Positions 272-45,335 of a stretch of 64,000 nucleotides of DNA are shown piece after piece; position 1 is the first letter of the stretch, and each line of letters opens with the position of its first letter. The translations under genes and the position numbers were made by a program. The notes below the pieces were generated by a model, which made no database searches, had not been told where the DNA came from, and saw only the letters and a list, made by a program, of their open reading frames with translations. The DNA lies in contig NZ_JAUDEA010000003.1 of assembly GCF_030372065.1 (NCBI RefSeq), positions 62,001 to 126,000 on the forward strand. Direction: 5' to 3'. Origin of the DNA: Thermophilibacter provencensis. GTDB taxonomy: Bacteria; Actinomycetota; Coriobacteriia; Coriobacteriales; Atopobiaceae.

Positions 272-300
272 TGTTACGAAGGGACAGTCCCTTCGTAACA
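272..300. repeat. Family A palindromic repeat (REP-like)
   Basis: A 29-base near-perfect palindrome whose left arm is TGTTACGAAGGGAC and whose right arm is its reverse complement. It lies between nadE and the transposase gene and begins directly after that gene's TGA stop. Other copies lie at 1100-1123 (partial), 4217-4245, 5997-6025 and 36978-37006. Confidence 0.85.
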
Positions 301-1036
301 TCACGCCCGCGCGATTACCCCTCTTCCGATGCCGGTCAAACGTTGAATCTGGGAAATGGACAGGCCGGCATCCTTAAGTTCAAAGAGTAGCGCATTGCGA
401 CGGCCGCGCTCCAGGGCTTTCAGGTCAGCTAGGGCGATCTCGCCGAGAATCCCGGAAGCAAGCCGTCGAGCCTCAGCGTCGGAGAGGCGGGTGCGTTCGA
501 AAAAGCGATGGCTTTCCCCATCCTCTGACGTGCTGAACGCAACAAATCCCTCGACCCCGCCACACAGCTCCAAGGCGCGCGCGGCGTCAATCAGGACCGG
601 TGTCCCAACATATTCGTGATAGCTGCTCCGTGGGTAGTCTTCCGCCGGGCATATTCCCACTTTCGCCGGGTTGTTGTGAATGTAGCGAATCGCTCGCAGC
701 AGATAGTCCCCGTTCTCGATGGGCTGACTCTTGAAGCGCTGCTGAAAGACGTGGCCAACGTGGTCGCTGCTCTTGTTGAAGCGCTGGGCATAGCTGGTGA
801 GCACAGATTTCATAACCTCACCGAGATGGTCCTCGGCATCCTCAAGCAGAAGGTGAACATGATTGGACATGAGGCAATAGGCGATGACTCGAACGCCGCC
901 CTTCTCGCACGCCTTGGAAAGAAACTCGAGAAACGCCTGATAGTCGTATGGACCCTCAAAAAGGTTCTGCCCTCCGCTCCCCTTGGCAATCACGTGATAG
1001 AGCCCGGACTCCGACTTAACGCGCGCACCTTGGCAT
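301..1036 (-). pseudogene. REP-associated tyrosine transposase (RAYT, Y1/IS200-like), frameshifted near the start
   Basis: The main open frame (301-993, 230 residues from a GTG) carries the HUH motif of Y1 single-strand transposases, SNHVHLLLED (His45 and His47), and the helix RYIHNNPAKVG with the presumed nucleophile Tyr104. The C-terminal part holds a helix-turn-helix-like segment (SISQIQRLTGIGRG). An ATG at 1034-1036 with a good Shine-Dalgarno (GGAGG) encodes MPRCAR and then runs into TAA. The family-typical continuation VKSESGLYHVIAKG lies in a different frame, so about two bases have been lost (or one gained) in a GCGCGC tract near 1017-1022. Translation could restart at the GTG, but the N-terminus would be short. 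The gene is bracketed by family A palindromes, which is typical of RAYTs and their cognate repeats. Confidence 0.72.
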
Positions 1037-1099
1037 AAGCAACCTCCCCACCCGCAACATAGGTGAGGAGGCTTATACCCATATTAGGCTGAAGAAAAA

Positions 1100-1126
1100 T
1101 GTTACGAAGGGACTGTCCCTTCATCA
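1100..1126. repeat. Family A palindromic repeat, partial copy
   Basis: The left arm TGTTACGAAGGGAC is intact. The right arm is shortened to GTCCCTTCATCA, having lost five bases compared with the full copies. The end of the repeat supplies the TGA stop of the ABC ATPase gene at 1124-1126. With the copy at 272-300 it flanks the RAYT gene. Confidence 0.7.
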
Positions 1127-1888
1127 CCCGTCGAGGTAGCGGGAGAGGAACTCGCGGGTGCGGGGCTGCTCAGGCGCCGTGAAGAGCTTCTCGGGCGAGC
1201 CCTTCTCGGCGATGACGCCCTTGTCCATGAAGACGACCTCGTCGGAGACGTTGCGCGCGAACGCCATCTCGTGCGTGACCACGACCATCGTCATGCCATC
1301 GGACGCCAGGCGCCGCATGACCTCGAGGACCTCGCCCACGATCTCCGGGTCGAGCGCCGAGGTGGGCTCGTCGAAGAGCATGAGGTCGGGCTGCATGCAG
1401 AGGGCGCGCGCGATGGCGACGCGCTGCTTCTGGCCACCGGAGAGGTTGTTGACGTCGGCGTGCGCAAAGTCGGCGAGCCCCACGGACTCGAGGTGGCCGA
1501 GCGCGACCTCCTCGGCCTCCGCCTTGGACATCTTCTTGAGGGTCACCGGTGCGAGCGTGCAGTTGTCGAGCACGTTCATGTTGTTGAACAGGTTAAAGCC
1601 CTGGAAGACCATGCCGATCTTCTCGCGCAGGCGGTTCACGTCAACGTGCTCGGCCGCAAGATCGGACCCGTGGAACCACACGTGGCCGGCGTCGGGCGTC
1701 TCGAGCAGGTTGATGCAGCGCAGGAGGGTCGACTTGCCCGAACCGGAGGCGCCGATGATCGTGACCACCTGGCCAGGCATGACGTCGAGGTTGATGTCGC
1801 GCAGGACCTCGAGGTCACCAAAGGACTTGCGCAGCCCCTCGATGCGGACCATCGGCTCTCCCACGCGGCGCGCGCTCTTCTCGGCCAT
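1124..1888 (-). CDS. Polar amino-acid ABC transporter ATP-binding protein
   Basis: A 254-residue ATPase of the GlnQ/ArtM type that powers uptake of an amino acid through the neighbouring permease. Walker A is GASGSGKST (46-54), the signature is [15 protein letters not shown] (149-163) and Walker B is [13 protein letters not shown] (169-181), followed by the switch histidine in [10 protein letters not shown]. The length is normal for the family. The ATG at 1886-1888 has a GGAGGAG ribosome site overlapping the end of the permease gene, which stops three bases earlier. It is the last gene of the operon binding protein - permease - ATPase. The substrate cannot be read from the sequence, but the divergent cysteine desulfidase makes cysteine/cystine a reasonable guess. 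Confidence 0.92.
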
Positions 1889-1891
1889 GGC

Positions 1892-3055
1892 TTACTCCTC
1901 CCCCACGAGGTTCTTGTCGGACGTGCTTCCCACCGGCTCGGGCTTGACGTCAAAGTGCTTGGCAAACTTCCCGAGCAGCCACGACGCGACCATCGTGAGG
2001 AAGAGGTACACCACCGCGGAGATGAGGCTGGGCTGCAGCTGGTTGTAGTAGACGCCGGTTGCCGTGGTGCTCGCAAAGGCGAGCTCGAAGGTACCGATGA
2101 CCGAGAGGACCGAGGAGTCCTTGATGTTGATGATGAGCTCGTTGGAGAGGCCGGGGATCGCAAACTTGATGCCCTGCGGGAAGACCACCTTGCGCATGGC
2201 CTGCCACTGCGAGAGGCCGAGCGAGCGCGCTGCCTCCGTCTGGCCCTTGTCCACGGACTCGATGCCGCCGCGCAGCACCTCCATCATGTACGCGGTGGAG
2301 TTGAGCGTGACGGTCACCAGGCCGCCGAGAAACGGCGTCCAGAGTCCGTTGATTTCCGTTGTGGTCATGCCCGTGCCGCGGAAGAGCGCAAAGATGGCCG
2401 GGTAGATGATCATGGCCTGGATCATCATCGGCGTGCCGCGGATCACGGTGCTGTACGCCTTGGCAAAGCCGCTGCCGAGCTTCTTCCAGAAGCGCACGAA
2501 GTCGTTGTCCGGGCGGTCGATGGTCTGGATGCGGCAGAACACGAGCAGCAGCGCCAGGAAGAAGGCGAGGATGGTGCCAAAGACCGCCAGCTCGACGGTG
2601 GTCACGAGGCCCGTGGTGAAGGTCTGGTGATCGTGCTGGAGGATGTAGAGGATGCCCTGGAGCATGTCCTCCTGGGGGCGCGCCGAGGAGGCCGCGGCGG
2701 CCTGCCACGCGGAGGCAACGCCCATGGCCCAGCGGTCGACCGCGAGCACGAGGACGAGCGCCCACACCACGTAGGAGCCGTAACGCAGGGCACGGCGGGC
2801 GGCGGGCCGCACGAAGGGCGAGGTCTGGTCGTAGGTGCGCCAGTGCGAGAGCTTGAACACCAGGGCCACGGCGCTCACCACGAGCCAGGCCACGAGCAGG
2901 TAGTACATCACCAGCTCGACGGTGAACGCGCGGGCGAGAAAGCTCATCGCCGGGCGCGGCGAGCTCGAGAGCAGCATGCCGAGAAACGCCACGGCGCTCG
3001 TGCCGAGAAGGACGTAGCGGTGGTCGCGCAGCACGAAGTCACGCAGTTTGGTCAT
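1892..3055 (-). CDS. Amino-acid ABC transporter permease (HisM/GlnP family)
   Basis: A 387-residue inner-membrane permease. The C-terminal 240 residues carry the family's membrane domain, including TVIRGTPMMIQAMIIYPAI and the EAA-like loop EAARSLGLSQWQAMRKVVFPQGIKFAIPGLSNE that docks on the ATPase. The N-terminal 130 residues add about three further membrane helices (for example YVLLGTSAVAFLGMLL), making it longer than the usual 220-250-residue permeases. The chosen ATG at 3053-3055 (MTKLRDFVLRDHR) has GAGGAG upstream. Longer readings run into the upstream hairpin and have no ribosome site. It is the middle gene of the ABC operon, with three bases between its stop and the ATPase start. Confidence 0.9.
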   Translation of the reverse strand: MTKLRDFVLRDHRYVLLGTSAVAFLGMLLSSSPRPAMSFLARAFTVELVMYYLLVAWLVVSAVALVFKLSHWRTYDQTSPFVRPAARRALRYGSYVVWALVLVLAVDRWAMGVASAWQAAAASSARPQEDMLQGILYILQHDHQTFTTGLVTTVELAVFGTILAFFLALLLVFCRIQTIDRPDNDFVRFWKKLGSGFAKAYSTVIRGTPMMIQAMIIYPAIFALFRGTGMTTTEINGLWTPFLGGLVTVTLNSTAYMMEVLRGGIESVDKGQTEAARSLGLSQWQAMRKVVFPQGIKFAIPGLSNELIINIKDSSVLSVIGTFELAFASTTATGVYYNQLQPSLISAVVYLFLTMVASWLLGKFAKHFDVKPEPVGSTSDKNLVGEE

Positions 3056-3077
3056 TCTTAAGAACTCCTCAGTGTGC

Positions 3078-3108
3078 GGGCGCGGAGGGGACGGTCCCTT
3101 CCGCGCCC
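3078..3108. repeat. GC-rich hairpin related to family A repeats, between binding protein and permease genes
   Basis: A 31-base inverted repeat. GGGCGCGGAGGGGACGG and its complement surround the core GGGACGGTCCCTTCC, the same core as the family A palindromes. It lies six bases after the stop of the binding-protein gene and inside the operon. Such a structure could protect or trim the 3' end of the binding-protein mRNA and so raise its level relative to the permease, but this role is inferred. Confidence 0.6.
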
Positions 3109-3114
3109 AACGCG

Positions 3115-4044
3115 TTAGGCCGGCTGACGGTCCATGCAGTCGTTCCACGTCTGCTGGCGCTCGTCCTCCGGGATCGTGGCGATGATCTCGTTGATCTGGT
3201 CGAGCACCGCATCCTGGCCCTTGGCGATGGCCGCGTTGTCGGGCATGACGGAGCCCTCGAACTTATCGTCCATCTGAAGCTCGACGAAGTCGGGATAGGT
3301 CTCGAGCAGCTTGGGCACCGAGAGCATTGAGTAGGTGATGATGTCGCAGGTGCCGTTGGTGAGGCCCTGGACGACGAGCGGCACGGTCTCGGCCGGCGTC
3401 ATGTGGTTGACGTCGGGGATCTGGTCGATCACGGTGTCGTACATTGTGGCGGCCTGGCCGAGGATGGAGGCGCCGGCGAGGTCGGCGAACGTGGTGGCGC
3501 CGGCGTAGGCGGAGTCCTTGGTGGTGATCATGACGATGTCGTCGTCAATGTAGGAGTCGGAGAAGTCCGCGGACTGGGCACGCTCGGGGTCGACGGACAT
3601 GCCCGCGCAGACGATGTCGATCTGGCCGTTGTTGAGCGAGTCGATGAGCGCGGCAAAGTCGAGCTTCACGGCCACGGCCTCCATGCCGAGGCCCTCCGCG
3701 ATGCGCTTGGCCACCTGCACGTCATAGCCGTCGGCAAAGGCGCCGGAGACGTTCTCGATGGGGATGGTGTACTCGGACTCCTCGCTGACCTGCCAGTTGT
3801 AGGGGGCGTAGGCCGCCTCCATGCCAACGCGCAGGGTCACGCCGTCGCCCAGCGCGGCGGTCTCGGGGGCGTCGTCGGCGGGGGCGTCGGTCTGCTCGGT
3901 GTCATCGGTGGTGGGCTCCTGCGCGGCGGGGCCGCAGCCGGAAAGGACCATCACGCCTCCCATACTCGCCACGAGGCTCGAGAGCCTGAGGAAGTCGCGG
4001 CGAGAAACTCTGTCAGATACAAAAACGTGCGGGGTGGCCTTCAT
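3115..4044 (-). CDS. Amino-acid ABC transporter substrate-binding lipoprotein
   Basis: A 309-residue extracytoplasmic solute-binding protein of family 3. The start MKATPH (ATG 4042-4044) is preceded by a GGAAAGGAACC ribosome site. A twin-arginine motif SRRDFLRL (14-21), a hydrophobic stretch and the lipobox VLSGC (Cys37) indicate Tat export followed by lipid anchoring. A short acidic/threonine-rich linker follows (PTTDDTEQTDAPADDAPE). The binding domain shows LRVGMEAAYAPYNW, FADGYDVQVAKRIAEGLGME and DIVCAGMSVDPERA, the classic family pattern for polar amino acids. It is the first gene of the operon and faces cysteine desulfidase across a divergent intergenic region. Confidence 0.9.
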   Translation of the reverse strand: MKATPHVFVSDRVSRRDFLRLSSLVASMGGVMVLSGCGPAAQEPTTDDTEQTDAPADDAPETAALGDGVTLRVGMEAAYAPYNWQVSEESEYTIPIENVSGAFADGYDVQVAKRIAEGLGMEAVAVKLDFAALIDSLNNGQIDIVCAGMSVDPERAQSADFSDSYIDDDIVMITTKDSAYAGATTFADLAGASILGQAATMYDTVIDQIPDVNHMTPAETVPLVVQGLTNGTCDIITYSMLSVPKLLETYPDFVELQMDDKFEGSVMPDNAAIAKGQDAVLDQINEIIATIPEDERQQTWNDCMDRQPA

Positions 4045-4091
4045 GGTGGTTCCTTTCCCTTGTGTGAAATCCCCTTTCGCGCGACGCAACC

Positions 4092-4112
4092 GGAGGGGAC
4101 CCATTCCCCTCC
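4092..4112. promoter_or_regulatory. Hairpin in the divergent region between ABC operon and cysteine desulfidase
   Basis: GGAGGGG (4092-4098) and CCCCTCC (4106-4112) form a seven-base-pair stem with a seven-base loop. It lies about 50 bases upstream of the binding-protein start and is probably within its leader. The 212-base divergent region also holds a TATGAT hexamer on the plus strand (4187-4192) as a weak -10 candidate for the desulfidase, one copy of the 13-base motif (4165-4177) and a family A palindrome. No recognised riboswitch was seen. Confidence 0.35.
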
Positions 4113-4216
4113 CCCTTGCAACTTAATGCGAGAAAGTTACGCGCACGTCGGCAGAATACAGCGCGGCGAGAAGGACCGTGTGCTGATATGATTTTGGGAA
4201 ACATCGCCGTAACGGG

Positions 4217-4245
4217 TGTTACGAAGGGACAGTCCCTTCGTAACA
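4217..4245. repeat. Family A palindromic repeat abutting the cysteine desulfidase ribosome site
   Basis: A full 29-base copy, TGTTACGAAGGGAC plus its complement. It ends one base before the GGAGG ribosome-binding site (4247-4251) of the downstream gene. This is the only copy in the window placed at the 5' side of a gene instead of at a stop codon. Confidence 0.85.
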
Positions 4246-4256
4246 TGGAGGACGCC

Positions 4257-5534
4257 ATGGGTCAGGAGACCTACGACTCGTACGTTGCCATTCTCGAGGA
4301 GGAGCTCGTCTGCGCGATGGGCTGCACCGAGCCCATCGCCGTCGCCTACTGCGCGGCGCTCGCGCGCCAGGCGCTCGGCACGCTCCCCGAGCGCGTTGAC
4401 GTGGCAGCCTCCGCCAACATCATCAAGAACGTCAAGAGCGTCGTCGTGCCCAACACGGGCGGAGCGCGCGGCATCGAGGCCGCCGCAGCGGCGGGCATCG
4501 TCGCGGGCGACGCCGACGCAAAGCTCGAGGTCCTTGCGGGCGTCACGCCGGAGCAGATCGAGGAGATGGACGGTTTTCTCGCCACGCGCGAGGTCACGGT
4601 CACGCCGAGCGAGCGCCCGTGGATCTTTGACATCCAGGTGCGCGCGGAGGCTGCCGGGCGCACGGCGTTCTGCGAGATCGCCGGGTCGCACACCAACGTC
4701 ATCCGCCTGGAGCGCGGCGACGAGGTCCTTCTCGACATCCCCTACGAGAATGCCGCCGAGGGCGGCACGGACCGCAGCTGTCTCTCCGTGGAGAAGATTG
4801 TCCAGTTTGCCGACGAGGTAAACCTTGACGACGTGAAGCAGGTCCTCGGGCGCCAGATCGCCTGCAACACGGCCATCGCGCAGGAGGGGCTCCACGGAAA
4901 CTGGGGCGCGGGCATTGGCAAGGTCCTGCTCGAGGCGTACGGCGAAGGCGTGGCCAACCGCGCAAAGGCGTGGGCTGCCGCCGGCTCAGACGCTCGCATG
5001 GGCGGCTGCGAGCTTCCCGTGGTCATTAACTCCGGCAGCGGCAACCAAGGCCTCACCGCCAGCGTGCCCGTCATCGTCTACGCCCAGGAGCTAGGCGTCT
5101 CGCACGAGGAGTTGCTGCGCGCGCTCGTGGTCTCAAACCTCATCACCATCCACCTCAAGACCGGGATCGGGCGCCTCTCCGCCTACTGCGGCGCCACGAG
5201 CGCGGGCGCGGGCGCGGCGGCCGGCATCACCTACCTCTACGGCGGGCGTGCACATGAAATCTCGCACACCGTGGTTAATGCCATCGCCATCGATTCCGGC
5301 ATGGTCTGCGACGGCGCCAAGGCGAGCTGCGCAGCCAAGATCGCGAACGCGGTTGAGGCGGGACTTCTGGGCATGCAGATGCAGAGCCAGGGCAAACAGT
5401 TCTACGGCGGCGACGGCATTGTGGTCAAGGGCGTGGAGAACACCATTCGCAACGTGGGCGTCTTGGCCGCTCAGGGCATGCGCGAGACGGACCGGACGAT
5501 CATTGAGCTCATGTGCGGGACGGGCGGCTGCTAG
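4257..5534 (+). CDS. L-cysteine desulfidase (UPF0597/CdsB-CyuA family)
   Basis: A 425-residue protein of the iron-sulfur L-cysteine desulfidase family, which cleaves cysteine to pyruvate, ammonia and sulfide in the cytoplasm. Family marks are ELVCAMGCTEPIAVAYCAA (Cys19 and Cys23 from the chosen start), NIIKNVKSVVVPNTGG, the glycine-rich VVINSGSGNQGLTASVPVIVY, and the cysteines in GAKASCAAKIANAVE and near the C-terminus in MCGTGGC. These cysteines are the likely cluster ligands. The ATG at 4257-4259 lies five bases after GGAGG; another in-frame ATG at 4245 would leave no room for a ribosome site. It is transcribed away from the amino-acid ABC operon and ends in a strong hairpin terminator. The pairing suggests uptake and breakdown of cysteine. 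Confidence 0.88.
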   Translation: MGQETYDSYVAILEEELVCAMGCTEPIAVAYCAALARQALGTLPERVDVAASANIIKNVKSVVVPNTGGARGIEAAAAAGIVAGDADAKLEVLAGVTPEQIEEMDGFLATREVTVTPSERPWIFDIQVRAEAAGRTAFCEIAGSHTNVIRLERGDEVLLDIPYENAAEGGTDRSCLSVEKIVQFADEVNLDDVKQVLGRQIACNTAIAQEGLHGNWGAGIGKVLLEAYGEGVANRAKAWAAAGSDARMGGCELPVVINSGSGNQGLTASVPVIVYAQELGVSHEELLRALVVSNLITIHLKTGIGRLSAYCGATSAGAGAAAGITYLYGGRAHEISHTVVNAIAIDSGMVCDGAKASCAAKIANAVEAGLLGMQMQSQGKQFYGGDGIVVKGVENTIRNVGVLAAQGMRETDRTIIELMCGTGGC

Positions 5535-5996: not shown

Positions 5997-6025
5997 TGAT
6001 ACGAAGGGACTGTCCCTTTGTATCA
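5997..6025. repeat. Family A palindromic repeat, variant with TGATACG ends
   Basis: TGATACGAAGGGAC and its near-complement, with compensated ends (TGATA/TATCA) and one changed base in the right arm. The terminal TGA (read on the minus strand, 6023-6025) is the stop codon of the TsaB-RimI-TsaD fusion. Confidence 0.82.
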
Positions 6026-8536: not shown

Positions 8537-8593
8537 TGACACTGGGCTCTGACGCCGCTGTCATGATGACAGTGGCGTCAGAGCCCAGCGTCA
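8537..8593. repeat. Family C palindromic repeat
   Basis: A 57-base imperfect palindrome centred on 8565. The arms contain GGGCTCTGACGCC and its complement, and the centre reads CTGTCATGATGACAG. It includes the TGA stop (8591-8593) of the esterase gene. Related copies lie at 16854-16889 and 28920-28948. Confidence 0.8.
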
Positions 8594-9562: not shown

Positions 9563-9593
9563 CTGACAGTTTACCCTGTCACCTTTGTCATCA
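9563..9593. repeat. Family B repeat at the GH3 stop codon
   Basis: The unit contains CCCTGTCACCTTTGTCAT with a flanking CTGACAGTTTA half arm. The GH3 stop TGA (9591-9593) lies at its right edge. Family B copies also occur at 17673, 20686 (inside a larger palindrome), 22453, 36221 and 45274 (two in tandem). Confidence 0.75.
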
Positions 9594-16772: not shown

Positions 16773-16853
16773 TGCAATAAAGCGCTGGTCGTGAGCGGTA
16801 TGGAAGCGCCGGTGAGCGGTTGGGCGAAAGACGCGCGATAAGTATGACAGTTG

Positions 16854-16889
16854 GCTCTGACGCCAGCGCCACCAGTGCCAGGTCAGAGC
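16854..16889. repeat. Family C repeat at the response-regulator stop codon
   Basis: GCTCTGAC (from 16854) and GTCAGAGC (to 16889) enclose GCCAGCGCCACCAGTGCCAG. The TGA stop of the regulator gene (16883-16885) is part of the right arm. Confidence 0.7.
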
Positions 16890-17672: not shown

Positions 17673-17709
17673 TCATGACAGATCACCCTGTCACCTTTGT
17701 CATGATGAC
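17673..17709. repeat. Family B repeat overlapping the sensor-kinase stop codon
   Basis: The unit CACCCTGTCACCTTTGTC is flanked by TCATGACA and CATGATGAC. The kinase stop TGA at 17700-17702 is read from the repeat. Confidence 0.75.
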
Positions 17710-20685: not shown

Positions 20686-20834
20686 CAGGCAAAAGGGGAC
20701 GGGTTATTTCTCTCAGAGCTTTTGGTGACAAAGGTGACAGGGTGGGTTGTCATCATGGGTTTCATGATGACAACCCACCCTGTCACCTTTGTCACCAAAA
20801 GCTCTGAGAGAAATAACCCGTCCCCTTTTGCCTG
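20686..20834. repeat. 149-bp perfect palindrome, nested family D and family B repeats
   Basis: Arms 20686-20757 and 20763-20834 are perfectly complementary over 72 bases around a five-base loop. The outer part begins CAGGCAAAAGGGGACGGG (family D). The inner part holds GGTGACAAAGGTGACAGGG and TTGTCATCATG (family B). It ends eight bases before the stop of the DUF3783 gene. The open frames on both strands through it are products of the symmetry. Confidence 0.93.
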
Positions 20835-22452: not shown

Positions 22453-22511
22453 ATGACAATCTACCCTGTCACCTTTGTCATGATGACAAAGGTGACAGGG
22501 TAGATTGTCAT
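22453..22511. repeat. Family B repeat, 59-bp perfect palindrome
   Basis: Perfect arms (22453-22480 and 22484-22511) begin ATGACAATCTACCCTGTCAC. It lies two bases after the stop codon of tsaE and just before the PerR operator region, which it insulates. Confidence 0.9.
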
Positions 22512-26446: not shown

Positions 26447-27016
26447 CTACTCCTTTGGAAGAGGCTGGGACGCGTCTTGCTCGTCTTGTCCACTTTGTAC
26501 CCGGTGCAAAGTGGACACGGATGAGAGCTCGTCCTCCTGGACGCGCTCCAGCTCGTCGAGAATGGAGCGAGCCTCCTTGAACGAGCTCGCGAGGGCGCGG
26601 GCGGCGTCCTGGCGCGCGTCTGGCTCGGGACGAACGTCATCGGTCACGGCAATGGCGTTTGCCACCGCCACGTCATGGGTGTGCGAGATGGAGAGCGCAA
26701 TCTCGCGGATGCCCCGCTCCCGCGCGATCTGCGCGGCACGGCCGGAGAGAATCGCGCGCGGGCGGCCCGATTCGTCGCGCCCCACAGAGACGTCACGGAA
26801 GCCCACGCCGTCGGAGAAGCCCGTGCCCAACGCCTTCACCACCGCCTCGCGCGCGGCAAAGCGCGCGGCGTAGTGCTCCGCTGGCCGCGCGCACCCCTCG
26901 CAGTAGGCACGCTCCTCGTCCGTGAAGACGCGCCGGGCAAAGTTGGGGCGCCGCCTGAGCACGCGCTCCATGCGCTCGATCTCGAGCATGTCAACGCCAA
27001 TTCCCGCAGTTGCCAT
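26447..27016 (-). CDS. acpS: Holo-[acyl-carrier-protein] synthase with extended C-terminus
   Basis: The first ~125 residues are a normal AcpS that transfers 4'-phosphopantetheine to acyl carrier protein: GIGVDMLEIERMERVL (magnesium-binding Asp), FAAREAVVKALGTGF (Glu and Lys) and LSISHTHDVAVANAI. The usual length is 120-130 residues; this protein has 189. The extra tail is a helix (FKEARSILDELERVQEDE) followed by SSVSTLHRVQSGQDEQ, which is the translation of a family E palindromic repeat (26487-26517). The tail has probably grown by a repeat insertion over the original stop. The ATG at 27014-27016 lies three bases after the stop of glmS. Confidence 0.92.
   Translation of the reverse strand: MATAGIGVDMLEIERMERVLRRRPNFARRVFTDEERAYCEGCARPAEHYAARFAAREAVVKALGTGFSDGVGFRDVSVGRDESGRPRAILSGRAAQIARERGIREIALSISHTHDVAVANAIAVTDDVRPEPDARQDAARALASSFKEARSILDELERVQEDELSSVSTLHRVQSGQDEQDASQPLPKE
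26487..26517. repeat. Family E palindromic repeat inside the 3' end of acpS
   Basis: TGTCCACTTTG and CAAAGTGGACA surround a nine-base centre. It is translated in frame as part of AcpS. The second copy lies at 42662-42692. Confidence 0.85.
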
Positions 27017-28919: not shown

Positions 28920-28948
28920 ATGACAATGGACTCTGACGCCAGTGTCAT
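28920..28948. repeat. Family C repeat, single half unit
   Basis: ATGACAATGG and CCAGTGTCAT bracket ACTCTGACG. It lies between glmM and glmS, 14 bases beyond the glmM terminator hairpin. Confidence 0.65.
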
Positions 28949-34593: not shown

Positions 34594-34684
34594 AAAAGGG
34601 GACGGGTTCTTTTGTTCAGGGAAAACGGGACAGGTCATTATTGCAAACCTGTCCCGTTTTATCTGTTCAGAAAAACACGTCCCC
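34594..34684. repeat. Family D repeat, double hairpin between GH31 and patatin genes
   Basis: The outer pair GGGGAC/GTCCCC (34598-34603 and 34679-34684) and loop segments TTGTTCAG/CTGTTCAG enclose an inner hairpin of AAAACGGGACAGGT and AACCTGTCCCGTTTT. It ends two bases before the stop of the patatin gene. The outer AAAAGGGGACGGGTT resembles the ends of the 149-bp palindrome at 20686. Confidence 0.78.
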
Positions 34685-35693: not shown

Positions 35694-36062
35694 TGGTGGA
35701 GGTGCGGAGAATCGAACTCCGGTCCAAAGCAGATCCCTGACAGGTGTCTCCAGGCTCAGTTACCGGTTGGGTCTCGGACGCCGCGCACCCGGCAACCCGC
35801 GCTTGGCGTCCCAGCCGGTTCAATCTTTTCAAGCGGCATACCGGCTACGTCCGCTCGAGCATCTCCCTCAAATGACGTCGCCGCGGAAACGGGAGCAATC
35901 TCCGCTTTGACGCGCCGCTATCTAATTAAGCAGCGAGAGCCAGCTGGGGCTCAAAAGAGTTGTTGTCGTCAATTCAGTTTGACGGTACCCCTGTTTAACG
36001 TGGCGAGGAGACCACGGCCTGCTGCCCATCTCAGACCCACCCTGTCGAAACCAGTCACCCCC
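35694..36062 (-). ncRNA. ssrA: Transfer-messenger RNA (tmRNA)
   Basis: On the minus strand the 5' end GGGGGTGACTGGTTTCGACA and the 3' end TTCGATTCTCCGCACCTCCACCA-like T arm and CCA are complementary over seven base pairs (GGGGGUG with CACCUCC), forming the alanyl-tRNA-like acceptor. The internal reading frame ends DDNNSFEPQLALAA followed by TAA, the degradation tag added to stalled nascent chains. The length is 369 bases. It works with SmpB, whose gene lies 0.95 kb upstream. A TTGACA hexamer (minus strand, 36117-36112) is a possible -35 but lacks a good -10. Confidence 0.95.
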
Positions 36063-36220: not shown

Positions 36221-36259
36221 GTCATGATGATGACAAACTACCCTGTCACCTTTGTCAGG
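36221..36259. repeat. Family B repeat at the rubredoxin stop codon
   Basis: The unit ACTACCCTGTCACCTTTGTC with a left flank GTCATGATGATGACA. Its last base directly precedes the stop codon (36260-36262) of the rubredoxin-like gene. Confidence 0.75.
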
Positions 36260-36400
36260 TTACTCCTCGACGAGCTCGAACATGTCGGGGCCAACGCCAC
36301 AGACCTCGCAGACAAAGTCCTCGGGCAGCTCGGGGGTGTCGACGGTGACCTCCCAGCCGCAGACGGTGCAGCGGAACGTGTACTTCTTCTCCTCGGACAT
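36260..36400 (-). CDS. Rubredoxin-like protein
   Basis: A small 46-residue gene. The reading frame begins MSEEKKYTFRCTVCGWEV and continues to DFVCEVCGVGPDMFELVEE. Two CxxC pairs (Cys11/Cys14 and a second pair about 20 residues later) would hold a single iron. Classical rubredoxins are ~54 residues with a more aromatic core, so this is a short variant. The ATG at 36398-36400 has GAGAGGAG upstream. It lies immediately downstream of a flavin reductase gene, suggesting an electron-transfer pair. Confidence 0.82.
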   Translation of the reverse strand: MSEEKKYTFRCTVCGWEVTVDTPELPEDFVCEVCGVGPDMFELVEE

Positions 36401-36960: not shown

Positions 36961-36977
36961 GCCCTTCTCCTTTCCGA

Positions 36978-37006
36978 TGTTACGAAGGGACGGTCCCTTC
37001 GTAACA
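36978..37006. repeat. Family A palindromic repeat at the smpB stop codon
   Basis: TGTTACGAAGGGAC with its complement; the central base is G instead of A/T. One base separates it from the smpB TAA (37008-37010). Confidence 0.85.
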
Positions 37007-37007
37007 T

Positions 37008-37526
37008 TTACCGGTTGAGCTCCTTCAGGGCGCGGGCGATCTCGCGGTCGGAGTCGCGCCGCGCCATGTCCGCGCGCTTGTCGTAAAGTTTCTTGCCGCG
37101 CGCGAGGCCAATGGCCAGCTTCACGCGGTTGTGCTCGTCAAAGTAGATCTCCAGCGGCACGAGCGCCATGCCCTTCTGGCGCAGCTTGGCGTCCAGGTAG
37201 TCGATCTGGCGGCGGTGCAGCAGGAGACGCCGCTTGCGGTCGGGGTCCACGTTCCACACGCCGCCGTTTGAGTAGGGGTGGATGTGCACGCCGTGAAGCC
37301 ACGCCTCGCGCCCGCGGATGAGGCAGAAGCAGTCCGTGAGCTGGCAGGCGCGCTCGCGCAGGCTCTTCACCTCGGTGCCTGTGAGCTCGATGCCCGCCTC
37401 GAGGGTCTCGTCGATGAAGTACTCGTGGCGCGCGGAGCGGTTCTTCGCGATGGTCTTCTTGCCCGGGCCGGCCTGCTTGGCCTTGGCGGCGGCAGCGGCC
37501 TGGCGCACGACCTTACTCTTCGCCAT
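37008..37526 (-). CDS. smpB: SsrA-binding protein SmpB
   Basis: A 172-residue tmRNA-binding protein needed for trans-translation at stalled ribosomes. Family motifs: KKTIAKNRSARHEYFIDETLEAGIELTGTEVKSLRE, FCLIRGREAWLHGVHIHPYSNGG, DPDRKRRLLLHRRQIDYL, LVPLEIYFDEHNRVKLAIGLARGKKLYDKR. The basic C-terminal tail RADMARRDSDREIARALK enters the mRNA channel. The ATG (37524-37526) lies inside the 3' end of the preceding TPR gene (14-base overlap). It is near ssrA and rnr. Confidence 0.96.
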   Translation of the reverse strand: MAKSKVVRQAAAAAKAKQAGPGKKTIAKNRSARHEYFIDETLEAGIELTGTEVKSLRERACQLTDCFCLIRGREAWLHGVHIHPYSNGGVWNVDPDRKRRLLLHRRQIDYLDAKLRQKGMALVPLEIYFDEHNRVKLAIGLARGKKLYDKRADMARRDSDREIARALKELNR

Positions 37527-40475: not shown

Positions 40476-40565
40476 GCGACCCTCCGTCCTTCTCGCCCGC
40501 GTCTTGTCTGCCTCCAGCTTATCGCATGCCCCCCCTTGGATGGAGACCCGACGGGCGCATACGGA

Positions 40566-40628: not shown

Positions 40629-40654
40629 AGGGACCGTTAGCACGATCGGTCGGA

Positions 40655-41593
40655 CTACACCTTGAGGTAGCGCCTCATGGCGATAGCAGAGCCAAACAGG
40701 CCGATCACAACGCCAATCACCAGCAGGATGCCAAACGTGGCATAGAGCGTGGCGGTCGGAATCTCAAACGAGAGGAACGAGAGGTTGCTCGCGAGCGCCG
40801 GCATCACAACGCTCATGCCGCCGGCAAGGGCAGCAATGGCGAGAAGCGCGGCGATGAGGGCCTCGAGCGTGCCCTCCATGACGAAGGGCCCGCGGATGAA
40901 GCCGTTGGACGCGCCAACGAGACGCATGATGGCGATCTCGCGACGGCGCGCCGTGATGGCGAGGCGAATCGTGTTGTTGATGAACACGAAGGCCACAAAC
41001 GTCAGCAGGGCAACGAGGATGACCGCGCCAAAGCGAATGTAGTTCGTGAACTCGAGCAGGCGCTCGACGGTGCCCTGGCCATAGAGGACGTCCTCGGTGG
41101 CGCTGGTCGTGGGGTCGTCGGCGCCGTCGCGAATCTGGGCGAAGGTGGGGTCAGAAGCGACCTTCTCGGCGGTGGCCTGGACCTGCTGCGCGTCCGTCAG
41201 GCGAATGACGAGGGAGGCGGGCAGGGGGTTCTCGCCGTCAAGCGCGGCGACGGCGTCGCTCGCGTTGCGGTTGGACATCGAGGTGCGGTACTCCTCGAGC
41301 GCCTCGTCCTTGGACTTGTAGGTCACGGACTCAACGTTGTCCCAGCTCTCGACCTCGGCCTTGAAGGCGTCAACGGAGGCCTGGTCGGCGTTGTCGGAGA
41401 GGAACGCCTGGATGGTGAGGCTGTCCTCAACGCCGCCGAGCACGCTGTTGATCATGGCGGAGCCAAGGATGAAGAGACCGATGATGAAGAGCGAGAGGAA
41501 GATCGTCACGATGGCGCCGAGGACGGTCGTCCAGTTGCGGCGAAAGTGATGACCCGCCTCGCGCAGGGAATAGCCAATGTTAGAGGGCGCCAT
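40655..41593 (-). CDS. ftsX: Cell-division ABC transporter permease FtsX
   Basis: A 312-residue membrane protein. A short cytoplasmic start (MAPSNIGYSLREAGHHFRRNWTTVLGAIVTIFLSLF) with the first helix is followed by a ~140-residue extracellular domain (SLTIQAFLSDNADQASVDAFKAEVESWDNVESV). Three C-terminal helices of the MacB/FtsX type complete it (FGAVILVALLTFVAFVFINNTIRLAITARRREIAIMRLVGAS). With FtsE it activates peptidoglycan hydrolases at division. Its ATG (41591-41593) overlaps the 3' end of ftsE by 14 bases. Confidence 0.95.
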   Translation of the reverse strand: MAPSNIGYSLREAGHHFRRNWTTVLGAIVTIFLSLFIIGLFILGSAMINSVLGGVEDSLTIQAFLSDNADQASVDAFKAEVESWDNVESVTYKSKDEALEEYRTSMSNRNASDAVAALDGENPLPASLVIRLTDAQQVQATAEKVASDPTFAQIRDGADDPTTSATEDVLYGQGTVERLLEFTNYIRFGAVILVALLTFVAFVFINNTIRLAITARRREIAIMRLVGASNGFIRGPFVMEGTLEALIAALLAIAALAGGMSVVMPALASNLSFLSFEIPTATLYATFGILLVIGVVIGLFGSAIAMRRYLKV

Positions 41594-42566
41594 AGTAGCC
41601 GTAGCCTCCCTTCTCCTGGTCGCGGACCACGTGGCCGGCCTCGAGCGCGATGACGCGCTTGCGCATGGAGTCGACCATCTCACGGTCGTGCGTCGCCATG
41701 ACGACGGTGGTGCCGGCGCGGTTGATGAGGTCGAGCAGCTTCATGATGCCGAGCGAGATCGCCGGGTCGAGGTTGCCCGTGGGCTCGTCGCAGACGAGCA
41801 GCGGGGGGCGGTTGACCATGGCGCGCGCAACGGAGACGCGCTGCTGCTCGCCGCCGGAGAGCTGGTCGGGGAAGTGCTGCATGCGCTCGGCAAGGCCAAC
41901 GAGGCGGAGCACCTCGGGGACCTGCGCCTTGACGACGGACTTGGGCTTGCCGATGCACTCGAGGGCAAAGGCGACGTTCTCGTAGACCGTCTTGTCCGGC
42001 AGGAGCTTGAAGTCCTGGTAGACGGTGCCAATCTGGCGACGGAGGTACGGAACCTTCTTGTTGCGCATCTTCGTGAGGTCCTGCCCGGCCACGATCACCT
42101 GGCCGGAGCTGGCCTTCAGCTCGCGCGTGATGAGGCGCAGAAGCGACGACTTGCCCGAGCCGGAGTGGCCGACGACAAAGACGAACTCGCCGGGGTAGAT
42201 GTCGAGGCTCACGTCATCGAGGGCGGGCTTGTTGGGCTGGGCCGGGTAGATGAGTGTGACGTTTTTGAACGACACGGTCGGGGTGCCGGTGCGCTGGACT
42301 GCCGGAGCGTCGTCCCCCGCAAGGGACGCGTAGACGCTGCCGCCGGTCGCAGGCTGGCTCTCGGAATCCGCAGGCTCCGACGCCGTCACCACGTGAACGG
42401 CCTCGGCGGCCTCCTCCGCCTGGGGGGTCTCGTCAGCAGCGGCGGGCGCGCTGACCTCCTCCGAGGTGGGGAGCTCGTCCTGCGGAGCCGTCTCGGGGAC
42501 GCTCACGGCATCAAGCGCCGCGTCCTCCGAGCCCTGTCGCTCAGTGCTGCGAAAATGACTGGCCAC
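41580..42566 (-). CDS. ftsE: Cell-division ATP-binding protein FtsE with acidic N-terminal extension
   Basis: A 328-residue protein. Residues ~100-328 are a normal FtsE ATPase: FVVGHSGSGKSSLLRL (Walker A), DQLSGGEQQRVSVARAMV (signature), LLVCDEPTGNLDP (Walker B), VVMATHDREMVD. The first ~95 residues form a low-complexity, strongly acidic, Ala/Glu/Pro-rich extension (PQDELPTSEEVSAPAAADE and similar) that typical 225-residue FtsE proteins lack. The start is a GTG at 42564-42566 with AAGGAGC upstream. I see no alternative start with a ribosome site nearer the ATPase core, so the extension is probably real. It is cotranscribed with ftsX. Confidence 0.93.
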   Translation of the reverse strand: MASHFRSTERQGSEDAALDAVSVPETAPQDELPTSEEVSAPAAADETPQAEEAAEAVHVVTASEPADSESQPATGGSVYASLAGDDAPAVQRTGTPTVSFKNVTLIYPAQPNKPALDDVSLDIYPGEFVFVVGHSGSGKSSLLRLITRELKASSGQVIVAGQDLTKMRNKKVPYLRRQIGTVYQDFKLLPDKTVYENVAFALECIGKPKSVVKAQVPEVLRLVGLAERMQHFPDQLSGGEQQRVSVARAMVNRPPLLVCDEPTGNLDPAISLGIMKLLDLINRAGTTVVMATHDREMVDSMRKRVIALEAGHVVRDQEKGGYGYYGAL

Positions 42567-42661
42567 AGAAGCTCCTTCTTATGCTCAAGATGGACAAATA
42601 CGCACATAGTCTAGCAAAGGGGCCGCTTGTCAACGGTTATTCCAGTCAAAACCCATATGTG

Positions 42662-42692
42662 TGTCCACTTTGTACCGGGTACAAAGCGGACG
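42662..42692. repeat. Family E palindromic repeat
   Basis: TGTCCACTTTGTACC and GGTACAAAGCGGACG form a 15-base-pair stem with a C/G change in the right arm and a one-base centre. It lies between ftsE and the transketolase terminator hairpin. The other copy is inside acpS. Confidence 0.82.
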
Positions 42693-42695
42693 CAA

Positions 42696-42728
42696 GGGGG
42701 CGGGGCCGCTCACCTGCGACCCCGCCCC
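42696..42728 (-). terminator. GC-rich hairpin after the transketolase operon
   Basis: GGGGGCGGGG (42696-42705) and CCCCGCCCC (42720-42728) form a stem with a 14-base loop, 22 bases after the stop of the last operon gene. The T run is absent, so it may act together with the adjacent family E repeat. Confidence 0.5.
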
Positions 42729-42750
42729 GGATGCTCGCTATTCTCGGCGC

Positions 42751-43689
42751 CTAGGCGAGAAGGGCCTCGACCTCGCGGATGATACCGGCAGCGTCGAGGT
42801 TGTACTTGTGGAGCAGGTCCACGGCGGGGCCGGACTCGCCGAAGACGTCGTTGACGCCCAGCTTGCGCGTGGGCACCGGGCTCTCGGCAAGCGCGGCGAG
42901 CACCGCGTCGCCCAGGCCGCCGATCACGGAGTGCTCCTCGGCGGTGACCACGCGCCCGGTCTTGTGGGCGCTCGCGCGGACGAGCTCCTCGTCGAGCGGC
43001 TTGATCGTGTGGATGTTGATGACCTCGGCGGAGACGCCCCTCTCGGCGAGGGTGTCGGCCGCCTCGAGCGCCGCCTGGACCATGAGGCCGCAGGCCACGA
43101 TCGTGACGTCGGTGCCCTCGCGCAGCACGATGCCGCGCCCGAGCTCGAACTCGTAGGTCTCCGGGTCGTTGAAGACCGGGACGGCCAGGCGGCCGAAGCG
43201 CAGGTACATGGGGCCGTCGGTCTCGTAGGCGGCGCGCACGGCGGCCTTGGCCTCCACGTCGTCCGCGGGGACGACGACGGTCATGCCCGGGATGGTGCGC
43301 ATGAGGGCGATGTCCTCGTTGCACTGGTGGGTGGCGCCGTCCTCGCCCACGGAGATGCCGGCGTGGGTGGCGCCGATCTTCACGTTGAGGTGCGGGTAGC
43401 CGATGGAGTTGCGCACGACCTCGAAGGCGCGACCGGCGGCGAACATCGCGAAGGTGCTCGCGAAGGCCACGCGGCCCGTGGTGGCGATGCCGGCGGCGAG
43501 GCCCATGAGGTCCTGCTCGGCGATGCCCGCGTCGAAGAAGCGGTCCGGGTAGGCGGCCTTGAACTTGCCGGTCTGCGTGGCGGCGGCGAGGTCGGCGTCG
43601 AGGACCACGAAGTCGTCGTGCTCGGCGGCGAGCTCCACGAGCGCCTCGCCGTAGCTCTGGCGGGTGGCCACCTTCTTCACGTCTGCCAT
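42751..43689 (-). CDS. Transketolase, C-terminal subunit
   Basis: A 312-residue half transketolase holding the pyrimidine-binding and C-terminal domains: ATRQSYGEALVELAAEHDDFVVLDADLAAATQTGKF, RFFDAGIAEQDLMGLAAGIATTGRVAFASTFAMFAAGRAFE (catalytic Glu in GIAEQ), VGEDGATHQCNEDIALMRTIPGMTVV, and the C-terminal VVTAEEHSVIGGLGDAVLAALAE. With the N-terminal subunit it forms the thiamine-diphosphate enzyme of the non-oxidative pentose phosphate pathway. It starts one base after the stop of the N-terminal subunit gene. Confidence 0.94.
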   Translation of the reverse strand: MADVKKVATRQSYGEALVELAAEHDDFVVLDADLAAATQTGKFKAAYPDRFFDAGIAEQDLMGLAAGIATTGRVAFASTFAMFAAGRAFEVVRNSIGYPHLNVKIGATHAGISVGEDGATHQCNEDIALMRTIPGMTVVVPADDVEAKAAVRAAYETDGPMYLRFGRLAVPVFNDPETYEFELGRGIVLREGTDVTIVACGLMVQAALEAADTLAERGVSAEVINIHTIKPLDEELVRASAHKTGRVVTAEEHSVIGGLGDAVLAALAESPVPTRKLGVNDVFGESGPAVDLLHKYNLDAAGIIREVEALLA

Positions 43690-43690
43690 G

Positions 43691-44521
43691 CTAGAGCTCC
43701 TTTCCCGCGGCCTCGAGCTCGGCCATGGCCTGGGCGAACTCGTCGTCGTTGGGCGCCTTGCCGTGCCAGCCCACCTGGCCCTCCATGAACGAGACGCCCT
43801 TGCCCTTGACGGTCTCGGCGACGATGCACACCGGCTGCCCCGTGACCCCGCGGGCCTCCTCGAAGGCGGCGCGGACCTGGGCCATGTCGTTTCCGTCGGC
43901 GAGCTCGATGACGTGGAACTTGAAGGCGCGGAACTTGTCGGCGATGGGCATCGCGGAGTTGACCTCCTCGATGGTGCCGTCGATCTGCAGGCCGTTGTGG
44001 TCCACGATCACCACGAGGTTGTCGAGGGCGCGGTTGCCCGCGAACATCGCGGCCTCCCAGACCATGCCCTCCTCGATCTCGCCGTCGCCGAGCAGCGCGA
44101 AGACGCGCCAGTCGTCGCCCCAGTGCTTGGCGGCGAGCGCCATGCCGGCGGCGGCGGAGACGCCCTGGCCGAGCGAGCCGGTGGACATGTCCACGCCCGG
44201 GGTGTCGTTCATGTTGGGGTGGCCCTGCAGGTGGCTGCCGATGTGGCGCAGGGTCTCGAGGTCCCCCTTGGGGAAGAAGCCGCGCTCGGCGAGCGTCGCG
44301 TAGAGCGCGGGGGCGCAGTGGCCCTTGGAGAGGACGAAGCGGTCGCGCCCCTCCCAGCGGGGCTCGTCCGGGCGGACGTTCATCTCCTCAAAGTACAGGT
44401 AGGTCAGGATGTCTGCCGCGCCGAGCGAGCCGCCCGGGTGGCCGGACTTGGCCGCGTGCGTGCCCACGAGGATGCCCTTGCGGACCTCGTTGGCAACGCG
44501 CGCGAGCTCTGCGTCTGTCAT
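43691..44521 (-). CDS. Transketolase, N-terminal subunit
   Basis: A 276-residue subunit holding the thiamine-pyrophosphate-binding domain: SGHPGGSLGAADILTYLYFEEMN, RDRFVLSKGHCAPALYATLAERGFF, DMSTGSLGQGVSAAAGMALAAKHWG, and the metal/diphosphate motif ALLGDGEIEEGMVWEAAMFAGNRALDNLVVIVDHNGLQIDG. The ATG at 44519-44521 has AAGGAGG. It is encoded between transaldolase and the C-terminal subunit; the pair replaces a single-chain transketolase here. Confidence 0.94.
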   Translation of the reverse strand: MTDAELARVANEVRKGILVGTHAAKSGHPGGSLGAADILTYLYFEEMNVRPDEPRWEGRDRFVLSKGHCAPALYATLAERGFFPKGDLETLRHIGSHLQGHPNMNDTPGVDMSTGSLGQGVSAAAGMALAAKHWGDDWRVFALLGDGEIEEGMVWEAAMFAGNRALDNLVVIVDHNGLQIDGTIEEVNSAMPIADKFRAFKFHVIELADGNDMAQVRAAFEEARGVTGQPVCIVAETVKGKGVSFMEGQVGWHGKAPNDDEFAQAMAELEAAGKEL

Positions 44522-44564
44522 GTGTGCCTCCTTCTGGGGTGTCCGGTTCTTCTCGCCGGCGCGC

Positions 44565-45248
44565 CTACTGGGCGGCCACTACCTTGGCCCAGTCGGCGTC
44601 GAAGGCCGCCATGCCCTGGTCGGTAAGCGGGTGCTTGAGGCACTTCTTGAGCGCGCCGAAGGGCACGGTGGCGATGTCGGCGCCCATGAGGGCGGCCTGC
44701 GTCACGTGGTTGGGTGTGCGCACGGAGGCGGTGATGATCTCCACCTGGTCGTCGACGTTCTTGCCGGACCAGTCGTAGTTGCCGATGCAGGTCACCACGT
44801 CGGCGAGCTGGGAGATGCCGTCCTCGGCGATGTCGTCAAAGCGGCCGACAAACGGGGAGATGTAGCGCGCGCCCGCGTTGGCGGCGAGAAGGGCCTGCGG
44901 GGCCGAGAAGACCAGCGTCATGTTGACGCGGACGCCCTCGGAGGCGAGCTGGTGCGTGGCGGCGAGCGCCTCGGCGCAGATCGGGAGCTTGACGACGATG
45001 TTGGGAGCGAGCGCGGAGAGGCGGCGGCCGTCGGCGATCATGTCCTCGGTGGTCTTGGCCTGGGACTCGGCGGAGACGGGGAGCCCCTCGCACATCTCGG
45101 CGATCTTGACCATGTGGGCCTCAAAGTCGGCGAGCTTGCCGCCGGTGCGCGCGTAGAGCGACGGGTTGGTGGTCACGCCCGCCAGACAGCCCCAGGAGAG
45201 GGCCTCGCGGATCTCGTCGAGGTCGGCGGTGTCGATGAAGAACTTCAT
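44565..45248 (-). CDS. Transaldolase / fructose-6-phosphate aldolase family protein
   Basis: A 227-residue TalC/FSA-type aldolase. MKFFIDTADLDEIREALSWGCLAGVTTNPSL is the classical start. Lys87 in NIVVKLPICAEAL is the Schiff-base lysine, and VNMTLVFSAPQALLAANAGARYISPFVGRFDDIA and VPFGALKKCLKHPLTDQGMAAFDADW follow. The short size puts it with fructose-6-phosphate aldolases and small transaldolases; the two cannot be told apart here. It works with the downstream transketolase halves in pentose conversion. The ATG is at 45246-45248. Confidence 0.92.
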   Translation of the reverse strand: MKFFIDTADLDEIREALSWGCLAGVTTNPSLYARTGGKLADFEAHMVKIAEMCEGLPVSAESQAKTTEDMIADGRRLSALAPNIVVKLPICAEALAATHQLASEGVRVNMTLVFSAPQALLAANAGARYISPFVGRFDDIAEDGISQLADVVTCIGNYDWSGKNVDDQVEIITASVRTPNHVTQAALMGADIATVPFGALKKCLKHPLTDQGMAAFDADWAKVVAAQ

Positions 45249-45273
45249 GTCGAGCTCCCTTCACGTTTGCGTT

Positions 45274-45335
45274 TTATGACAAGTTACCCTGTCACCCTTG
45301 TCATGATGACAGTTTACCCTGTCACTTTTGTCAGG
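45274..45335. repeat. Two family B repeat units in tandem
   Basis: The first unit contains TACCCTGTCACCCTTGTC and the second TACCCTGTCACTTTTGTC, separated by ATGATGACAGT. They fill the gap between the PTS IIB and transaldolase genes and end one base before the IIB stop codon (45337-45339). Confidence 0.78.

Follow-up and report, generated by a model that had tools for sequence, protein, structure and literature searches.

How do palindromic repeats come to lie at, or even to supply, the stop codons of genes in a 64,000-nucleotide stretch of the Thermophilibacter provencensis genome (contig NZ_JAUDEA010000003.1, positions 62,001 to 126,000; hereafter the window)? For REP-type elements in general, a place beside stops could reflect targeting, tolerance or function. 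The question is directly testable here: at orthologous stops the genus shows an element in some species, a different one in others and none in yet others, it includes species that have the transposase and species that lack it, and its transposases each have a palindrome family of their own at their flanks. The genus can be regarded as a good natural experiment on the choice of harmless sites by such elements, or on their survival there. Our preferred answer, to which we assign a probability of about 0.72, is that these are REP/TIR-like mobile palindromes copied by their own RAYT/TIRYT-type Y1 transposases, and that their registration would reflect insertion preference and purifying selection rather than a 3'-end function.

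All palindromes listed in the preliminary description were found where it had placed them (Table 1), with gaps to stops based on our own gene calls and unit boundaries. The two palindromes that had been set aside as lying away from stops did so, and the one noted as lying inside a gene was located in its coding tail. The family B unit at the GH3 gene had been described as containing the stop; the unit is at the stop, but abuts it rather than enclosing it. The palindrome at 4217 had been called a clear exception, and it is indeed not at a stop; however, it occupies a second preferred position, directly 5' of the next gene's Shine–Dalgarno sequence. That gene had been read as a cysteine desulfidase in the preliminary description.

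Table 1. Palindromic repeats and the transposase gene of the window, with their placement relative to genes
Feature	Position	Strand	Placement or remark
Family A palindrome	271..301		Flush with RAYT stop, gap 0
RAYT/TIRYT-type Y1 tyrosine transposase, 260 aa	301..1083	-	Pfam Y1_Tnp 44.2 bits (cut-off 23); family A palindrome 16 nt upstream of likely start and another flush after stop
Family A palindrome	1100..1128		ABC ATPase stop inside; 16 nt 5' of likely RAYT start
A-like palindrome	3078..3108		Gap 6 nt past solute-binding protein gene stop
Family A palindrome	4217..4245		Between conserved upstream motif and Shine–Dalgarno sequence of gene 4188-5534
Family A palindrome	5997..6025		TGA of palindrome is TsaD stop codon
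Family C inverted pair	8537..8593		Alpha/beta hydrolase stop inside
Family B unit, 27 nt	9564..9590	-	Abuts GH3 stop, gap 0
Family C unit and larger inverted repeat	16845..16889	-	LytTR regulator stop inside larger inverted repeat
Family B unit	17676..17702	-	GHKL kinase stop inside, being the TGA of the unit
D+B composite, perfect arms 72 nt	20686..20834		Gap 8 nt after stop
Family B inverted pair	22453..22511		Gap 2 nt after TsaE stop
Family E palindrome	26487..26517		Within C-terminal coding tail of gene 26447-27016; not at stop
Family C unit	28921..28948	-	86 nt from a stop; exception
Family D composite	34598..34684		Gap 2 nt after stop
Family B unit	36231..36257	-	Gap 2 nt after stop of small gene 36260-36400
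Family A palindrome	36977..37007		Between smpB stop and next Shine–Dalgarno sequence; gap 0-1
Family E palindrome	42662..42692		58 nt from a stop; exception
Two family B units	45277..45333	-	Gap 3 nt after stop

The repeats are multi-copy, palindromic and extragenic, as are REPs in the general sense, and mostly have a common AAAGGGGACAG-type core. They had been described as several families, and they do differ in their arms, but they mostly constitute one core-sharing superfamily, with E looking separate. Three RAYT-type genes were found in the genome that contains the window (G000), each flanked by its own family, namely A (window copy), B (C32) and D (C33), and all three scored above the Pfam Y1_Tnp cut-off. 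The motifs NHVHLL/NHVHIV and a tyrosine in RYIHNNP/RYVHLNP were read from two RAYT translations, and we take these to be the HUH motif and the catalytic residue, respectively. Scores against NCBIfam NF047646 (REP_Tyr_transpos) were 59.2 (window copy), 72.2 and 40.9 bits, all below the cut-off of 80, so that the three transposases are related to this equivalog yet fall under its curated line. A scripted search for RAYT starts gave wrong frames or starts at several loci (open frames >330 aa, and the start of the window copy truncated) and was relied on only where a palindrome clearly abuts the RAYT stop. No RAYT was found here for families C and E. CGTC REPs have a CGTC tag at one end and no transposase link; family C has an internal GGCGTCAG, and no cognate of it was present at the three RAYT loci.

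The placement at stops was not peculiar to the window. Within it, 12 of 15 noncoding loci lay ≤15 nt from a stop against 3.84 expected (binomial p 1.6e-5), and in 622 kb of the same genome outside the window the corresponding count of noncoding family repeats was 22/38 against 8.05 expected (p 9e-7), with 14/38 at ≤5 nt (6.43 expected, p 0.0026). Loci inside predicted genes were excluded (2/17 in the window and 7/45 outside it), and the A-like copy at 3078, which was missed by the family seeds, is absent from these counts. Beyond the window, therefore, the distances revealed strong enrichment over intergenic space and not the lack of it that would have spoken against the preliminary description. 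That chance or a biased window lies behind the placement was given some colour by the larger share within the window, which exaggerates the size of the effect; the effect is nonetheless real, and this explanation is left with a negligible probability, since the same trend appeared on independent contigs, in 17 relatives and in another genus.

Across the genus, elements were collected with family seeds, which replaced a core-plus-arm detector that missed most B units, and reversed sequence, used as a control, yielded 98 hits compared with 493. Among the merged loci, 98/310 lay inside predicted genes and were excluded from the gap counts; most of these matched I or B weakly. In this set, 110/190 elements were ≤5 nt from a stop against 11.5 expected, and none was ≤5 nt upstream of a start against 12.0 expected. 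When distinct site-and-family events were counted, 72/145 were ≤5 nt from a stop (8.8 expected) and 89/145 were ≤15 nt from one, again with none ≤5 nt upstream of a start. In another genus 9/28 elements were flush with a stop, for which the null was 4 %, and 19/28 were ≤15 nt away. In G077, where the listed arms are without the TGA tip, only 1/15 was flush, as judged by gene calls from a model trained on another genus. RAYT-linked palindromes at, or supplying, stop codons, as had been proposed from the window, were thus borne out in both the genome and the genus.

Registration on the stop was often exact. Many palindromes read TGA...TCA, with that TGA being the stop of the gene, and where two genes converge, a single palindrome can provide the stop for both. 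In near-stop rows, in which orthologous copies were not collapsed, the stop lay on the element tip in 21/30 for family G (18 TGA and 3 TAA), 6/17 for A, 8/25 for B and 5/7 for H (two of these being weak single-arm matches), and family F lay exactly 0 nt after the stop in 16/20. The flush TGA-tipped families were found at a TGA stop at 28/40 distinct sites, against a background of 27 %, and families D and K at a TAA stop at 8/10 sites, against 21 %. Families B to E were looser, being >15 nt from the stop in 15/46 tandem rows. Copies of family F away from stops had no TAG in front, which rules out TAG as a built-in tag of this family and means that no simple target motif accounts for placement. 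Insertion simply 3' of a TGA/TRA target was likewise unsupported for F and at the 4217-type site, where the five empty sites have no TGA at the corresponding point.

The second preferred position was 14–22 nt upstream of a start, beside the Shine–Dalgarno (SD) sequence. Both positions bear on the possibility that insertion is random and that copies survive only in narrow untranslated spacers, with no insertion preference, which we regard as unlikely while granting it an appreciable chance. It would fit the few in-gene copies (5 two-armed loci among the 98 inside loci in 1.79 Mb, the others being mostly weak matches), the lack of elements immediately upstream of starts, and the 18 of 25 cases in which the palindrome fills the entire stop-to-SD space where the remaining gap is <25 nt. 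However, in tandem gaps with ≥60 nt to spare, 27/42 copies of the perfect-arm families were still flush (−12 to +2), with only 7 at 3–15 nt, 7 beyond and one at −13. In divergent gaps, moreover, 10/10 copies were 12–24 nt from the start against 1.95 expected (6/6 distinct sites, p 5e-5); one more row was dropped from this count for an overlapping gene call, and if a mixed E+G locus that lies 81 nt from the start, and was classed with E, were included, the count would be 10/11. We favour insertion preference and purifying selection acting together. Each of the main families would have its own RAYT/TIRYT-type single-strand (Y1) transposase to copy it, and we infer that this enzyme moves the palindromes in single-stranded form. 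Where an insertion disrupts coding sequence, an SD sequence, a promoter or a terminator it would be lost, whereas TGA...TCA-tipped palindromes would be translationally silent at a gene end, because the stop is re-supplied, and in convergent pairs silent for both genes. The narrow registration would then result from a preference for inserting at these gene boundaries together with purifying selection, and not from a 3'-end function. The sequences themselves show the RAYT flanks of A, B and D, the registration, the orthologous stops that hold another family or no element, the lower numbers in RAYT-less species and the use of the element's own TGA (TAA in D/K) as the stop of the gene.

It is also conceivable, but rather doubtful, that the tips evolved as stop codons (TGA; TAA in D/K; TAG in GTAG-REPs), rendering an insertion at a gene end silent in translation on both strands, with insertion itself steered to an in-frame stop or to the upstream SD edge. 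If the tips were so selected, the TAG that GTAG-REPs carry and the TGA of the present repeats would have one explanation, and insertion steered to translation boundaries would, if true, amount to mobile DNA reading its host's translational layout.

Two further explanations would have the hairpins themselves retained. That they are intrinsic terminators of the ordinary kind, or conserved hairpins at mRNA 3' ends, with a sequence shared by accident, might be suggested by strong hairpins beside stops, as folding of five sites gave z values of −3.15, −2.86, −3.37 and −12.03 at three A sites plus a paired B site (but +0.27 at GH3, where the B unit is single), and by the CATTTT that follows some palindromes. 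Against this, many palindromes precede, by eye, an SD sequence with no T-run, and the ends of orthologous genes showed no conserved combination of hairpin and U-run. In sister species the orthologous stop holds a different family or no element at all, as was seen at the solute-binding protein stop and at the smpB stop, where five family labels occur across the genus (a comparison of 30 rows, of which L080, L089, L092 and L099 were unreadable); the 4217 site, which is not at a stop, is likewise empty or held by other families in relatives. Flush hairpins were present at 5/133 stops in two RAYT-less relatives against 102/810 (Fisher p 0.0017), with 0 at 64 stops in one of these species, G005, and dependence on RAYTs was apparent across 31 genomes (Spearman 0.45, p 0.01). 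Two genomes run counter to it: G019 lacks a RAYT but has A-like copies at five stops, and G026 has one RAYT and no core palindrome. Terminator-like downstream hairpins, in contrast, were equally common with and without RAYTs (103/810 and 21/133), and past the end of gene 3115 a GC-rich terminator-like sequence, distinct from the palindrome, is shared by species that have an element there (e.g. G022 and G010) and by G005, which has none. The palindromes are thus not conserved terminators, the terminator explanation was rejected as highly improbable, and the suggestion in the preliminary description that they may have been adopted as mRNA 3' ends found no support. Alternatively, a hairpin at the stop may be kept because it stalls or insulates the terminating ribosome, as for E. 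coli REPs ≤15 nt from stops, an effect that the available text of PMC12306157 summarizes from earlier work. The tight registration, and the stops that hold several families in different species, are in keeping with this. It is nevertheless improbable, as relatives such as G005 manage without, the stops of TsaD and similar essential genes are bare in some species, and a permutation test found no excess of stops re-used between families (36 pairs against a null mean of 60.9), although its statistic penalizes copies shared by descent and is regarded as poorly suited. As for insertion itself, empty orthologous sites were seen at the 4217-type site and in other comparisons, but a clean insertion was evident at few sites, because the partner site often held ~8–14 nt of unrelated spacer (about 23/56 comparisons listed) and in some cases another palindrome.

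REPs near stops, and GTAG-REPs that supply TAG, are already published. GTAG-tagged REPs, found mainly in gammaproteobacteria, are described in the main text of Di Nocera et al. 2013 (PMC3733652) as RAYT-linked, extragenic and near 3' ends (many <20 bp), with termini that 'often provide' a TAG stop codon. In the available text of Nunvar 2010 (PMC2817692) and Nunvar 2013 (PMC3686654), REPs may sit immediately after the rayt stop and orthologous RAYTs are flanked by REPs that belong to different classes, which also applies to the RAYT locus of the window. Unlike GTAG-REPs, our repeats lack the tag: an unpaired GTAG at the hairpin foot was not found, G, H, A and B start with TGA or TGT, a TAG stands in front of F only where F is at a stop, and the stop supplied is mostly TGA, located in the paired tip. 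There is also a close resemblance to TIRtrons, a Y1 tyrosine transposase related to RAYTs with flanking inverted repeats that carry a GGGGWSAS-type motif, and with several families per genome in pairs and clusters (main texts of PMC3733652 and, for TnpA-REP subclass 2.1, PMC6006769). For A, B and D, copies of the cognate family border the transposase gene at either side. An exact GGGGWSAS motif is present in G, J and K and in part of the F copies; A and H (AGGGACAG), B (GGTGACAG) and D (GGGGACGG) deviate from it by a single base, and family E sequences lack it. The TGA...TCA tips and the exact stop registration differ from TIRtrons as the main texts present them, where the sole mention of a 'stop codon' is about GTAG REPs; that of PMC3733652 has no mention of Actinobacteria, Collinsella or Olsenella, and that of PMC6006769 none of Actinobacteria or Coriobacteri-. 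Literature searches for this pattern found no published description of the TGA-tipped variant or of two-site registration and, among the matches listed, no paper on REPs in Coriobacteria. Family B inverted pairs resemble the REPIN/BIME doublets of Bertels and Rainey 2011 (PMC3116915), whose available text reports a random distribution in extragenic space, tested by spacing between copies, whereas placement relative to genes is strongly non-random here, above all for single perfect palindromes. A hairpin ≤15 nt from a stop is also known for E. coli, for which the available text of the RepRanger paper (PMC12306157) gives 446/4072 REPs and cites an earlier count of 260/496; the corresponding 89/145 distinct events of our study were obtained by a different detection method.

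Among minor observations, the C-terminus of the LytTR regulator at 16845..16889 is the same as in most relatives. A comparison of TsaD between G001 and G003 was consistent with insertion 3' of a TGA/TRA target.

Across 1.79 Mb of sequence (17 relatives, the window and two contigs of the same T. provencensis genome, C1 and C12), a seed search for eleven families of palindromic repeats (A–K) returned 493 half-site hits, compared with 98 on the reversed sequence. Merging gave 310 loci, of which 98 lay within predicted genes. Among the 190 elements counted, each with a coding overlap of ≤6 nt, 110 were ≤5 nt from a stop codon against 11.5 expected, and none was ≤5 nt from a start (12.0 expected). 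When orthologous copies were collapsed, 72 of 145 events remained ≤5 nt from a stop (8.8 expected). The preliminary description had proposed that RAYT-linked palindromes sit at, or supply, stop codons; those it listed were present in the window where it placed them, and the enrichment extended beyond the window. On C1 and C12 (622 kb), which were picked without regard to repeats from this genome of 2.23 Mb and 35 contigs, families A–E formed 45 loci, 7 within predicted genes; 22 of the remaining 38 lay ≤15 nt from a stop, compared with 8.05 under random intergenic placement, and none fell within the 5 nt before a start, where 7.27 would be expected. The window's share of stop-near copies exaggerates the effect relative to the rest of the genome. 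All gap counts rest on a simple codon-usage gene finder (coding density of 88–90 % on the two big contigs), whose stop positions are secure and start positions less so. A hairpin scan of 611 stops found 146 hairpins in two groups, at −5 to +14 nt and about +20 to +40 nt from the stop.

Tallied over near-stop rows, with orthologous copies uncollapsed, each family showed a characteristic offset. The stop fell on the tip (outer end) of the element in 21/30 copies of family G (TGATTCAAAAGGGG...CCCCTTTTGAATCA; 18 TGA and 3 TAA), 5/7 of H, including two weak matches, and 6/17 of A, the remainder of which mostly began 0–2 nt past the native stop. Family F (CGTGCAAAAGGGAC...) lay exactly 0 nt past the stop in 16/20, and the arm of D and K elements often included the stop codon, which was mostly TAA. 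Registration of family B is loose, with the stop on the tip in 8/25 and other copies up to 14 nt away. At flush sites, where palindrome and stop overlap or nearly touch, TGA was the stop at 28 of 40 distinct sites for TGA-tipped families and TAA at 8 of 10 for D and K, an excess over background usage (TAG 773, TGA 414, TAA 325) which shows that the elements supply the stop. A single palindrome gave TGA to both genes of a convergent pair in five rows, some orthologous; the empty counterpart of one, in relative G022, has convergent genes ending on abutting TAG and CTA. In tandem gaps with at least 60 nt to spare, 27/42 perfect-arm copies were flush. No insertion target motif was found, and no transposition event was observed.

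A second preferred position was seen near starts. In divergent gaps, perfect-arm copies lay 12–24 nt from a start in 10/10 cases (1.95 expected), representing 6/6 distinct sites. This tally excludes a single row in which gene calls overlapped, and a mixed E+G locus outside the range was counted with E. Families B, C, D and E did not follow this rule (1/6). Seven genomes carried elements, singly or in pairs and from several families, at the site 5' of the gene at 4188–5534, which was bare in G005, G010, G003, G019 and G021.

Families also replaced one another at orthologous stops. The TsaD stop carried G in G022, G004, G001 and G016 (the G016 copy being given to the adjacent gene in the ortholog-by-stop tabulation), H in G010 and A in T. 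provencensis, and was bare in G005, G021 and further genomes. A family F element sat at the gene end in G008, G025 and G017, where it supplied a stop after a few additional residues. At the smpB stop, 10/18 genomes bore an element, labelled A, G, H, I or mixed F/I. The window RAYT had orthologues in nine genomes, its stop bearing an A, F or G palindrome, and the adjoining ABC-gene stop bore the same family in 9/9. Nunvar 2013 (PMC3686654) describes a similar pattern, in which REPs differ within RAYT orthogroups. LytTR C-terminal residues were identical with and without the element, and the last residues of the ABC and TsaD proteins were unaltered in most species. Many partner sites contained another short spacer, so that the precise point of insertion, and whether bases were lost, can be read at few sites. 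A permutation test for hot stops common to families gave no excess (36 vs 60.9 under the null). Two other 12-mers, GGCGAGAAGAAC (29 copies) and TTGCCCAAAACC (25 copies), were over-represented between genes on C1 and C12 and in the window; the former occurs in partner sites whose counterpart in another species bears a palindrome.

RAYT genes were flanked by their own family: A at the window RAYT, B and D at those of contigs C32 and C33. Stop-flush hairpins occurred at 102/810 stops in RAYT-bearing genomes vs 5/133 in two RAYT-less relatives (Fisher p 0.0017; G005 0/64, G019 5/69), and hairpins at +16 to +60 did not differ (103/810 vs 21/133). Among the 31 genomes of the genus group, three RAYT-less members held 5, 0 and 3 core palindromes, against a median of 16 in the remainder. 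Exceptions were G019, which retains A-like copies, and G026, with a RAYT but no core palindrome.

Beyond the genus, stretches of G045 (another genus of the same taxonomic family, Atopobiaceae of the Coriobacteriia), selected by core pattern, had 9/28 palindromes flush (null 4 %) and 19/28 ≤15 nt from a stop. A wider sample took in 33 further loci, some from the same genus or from G045; of their 36 palindromes, 6 were flush, 11 at 3–15 nt, 1 at a Shine–Dalgarno sequence and 18 elsewhere. In G077, whose listed arms lack the TGA tip, 1/15 palindromes was flush.

This kind of element is already known: Di Nocera 2013 (PMC3733652) reports REPs whose distance from 3' ends is <20 bp, a TAG stop frequently given by the GTAG terminus, and GGGGWSAS repeats flanking TIRYT genes, and PMC8266576 assigns GTAG a role in recognition and guiding. 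As far as the literature searched shows, the following are new: this lineage's palindromes, TGA-tipped and GGGGWSAS-like, the near-single-base registration and Shine–Dalgarno-edge site, and the family turnover at identical stops together with the contrast with RAYT-less sisters. Ribosome stalling by REPs ≤15 nt from stops is reviewed in PMC12306157; in the window, smpB, whose stop bears a palindrome, lies near the tmRNA gene.

Positions of features in the window
Feature	Position	Strand	Remark
Corio-PBP RNA (Rfam RF02945)	4073-4146	-	near 5' palindrome
5' palindrome	4217		
RAYT	301		
Long near-perfect palindrome	20686-20834		
Gene with variable C-terminal tail	26447-27016		
Family E palindrome	26487-26517		translated as codons in that tail
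tmRNA	35694-36062	-	
smpB	37008-37526	-	stop bears palindrome
Two rRNA operons	54327-64000	-	nearly adjacent; second cut by window end

A tail resembling the one that contains the family E palindrome occurs in G013. Very long palindromes with arms of 39–72 bp (0–1 mismatches) were seen in the window and at C1 and C12 loci, and their outer arms include locus-specific or nested degenerate repeat sequence. Since perfect palindromes of such length should be unstable, something may keep them perfect.
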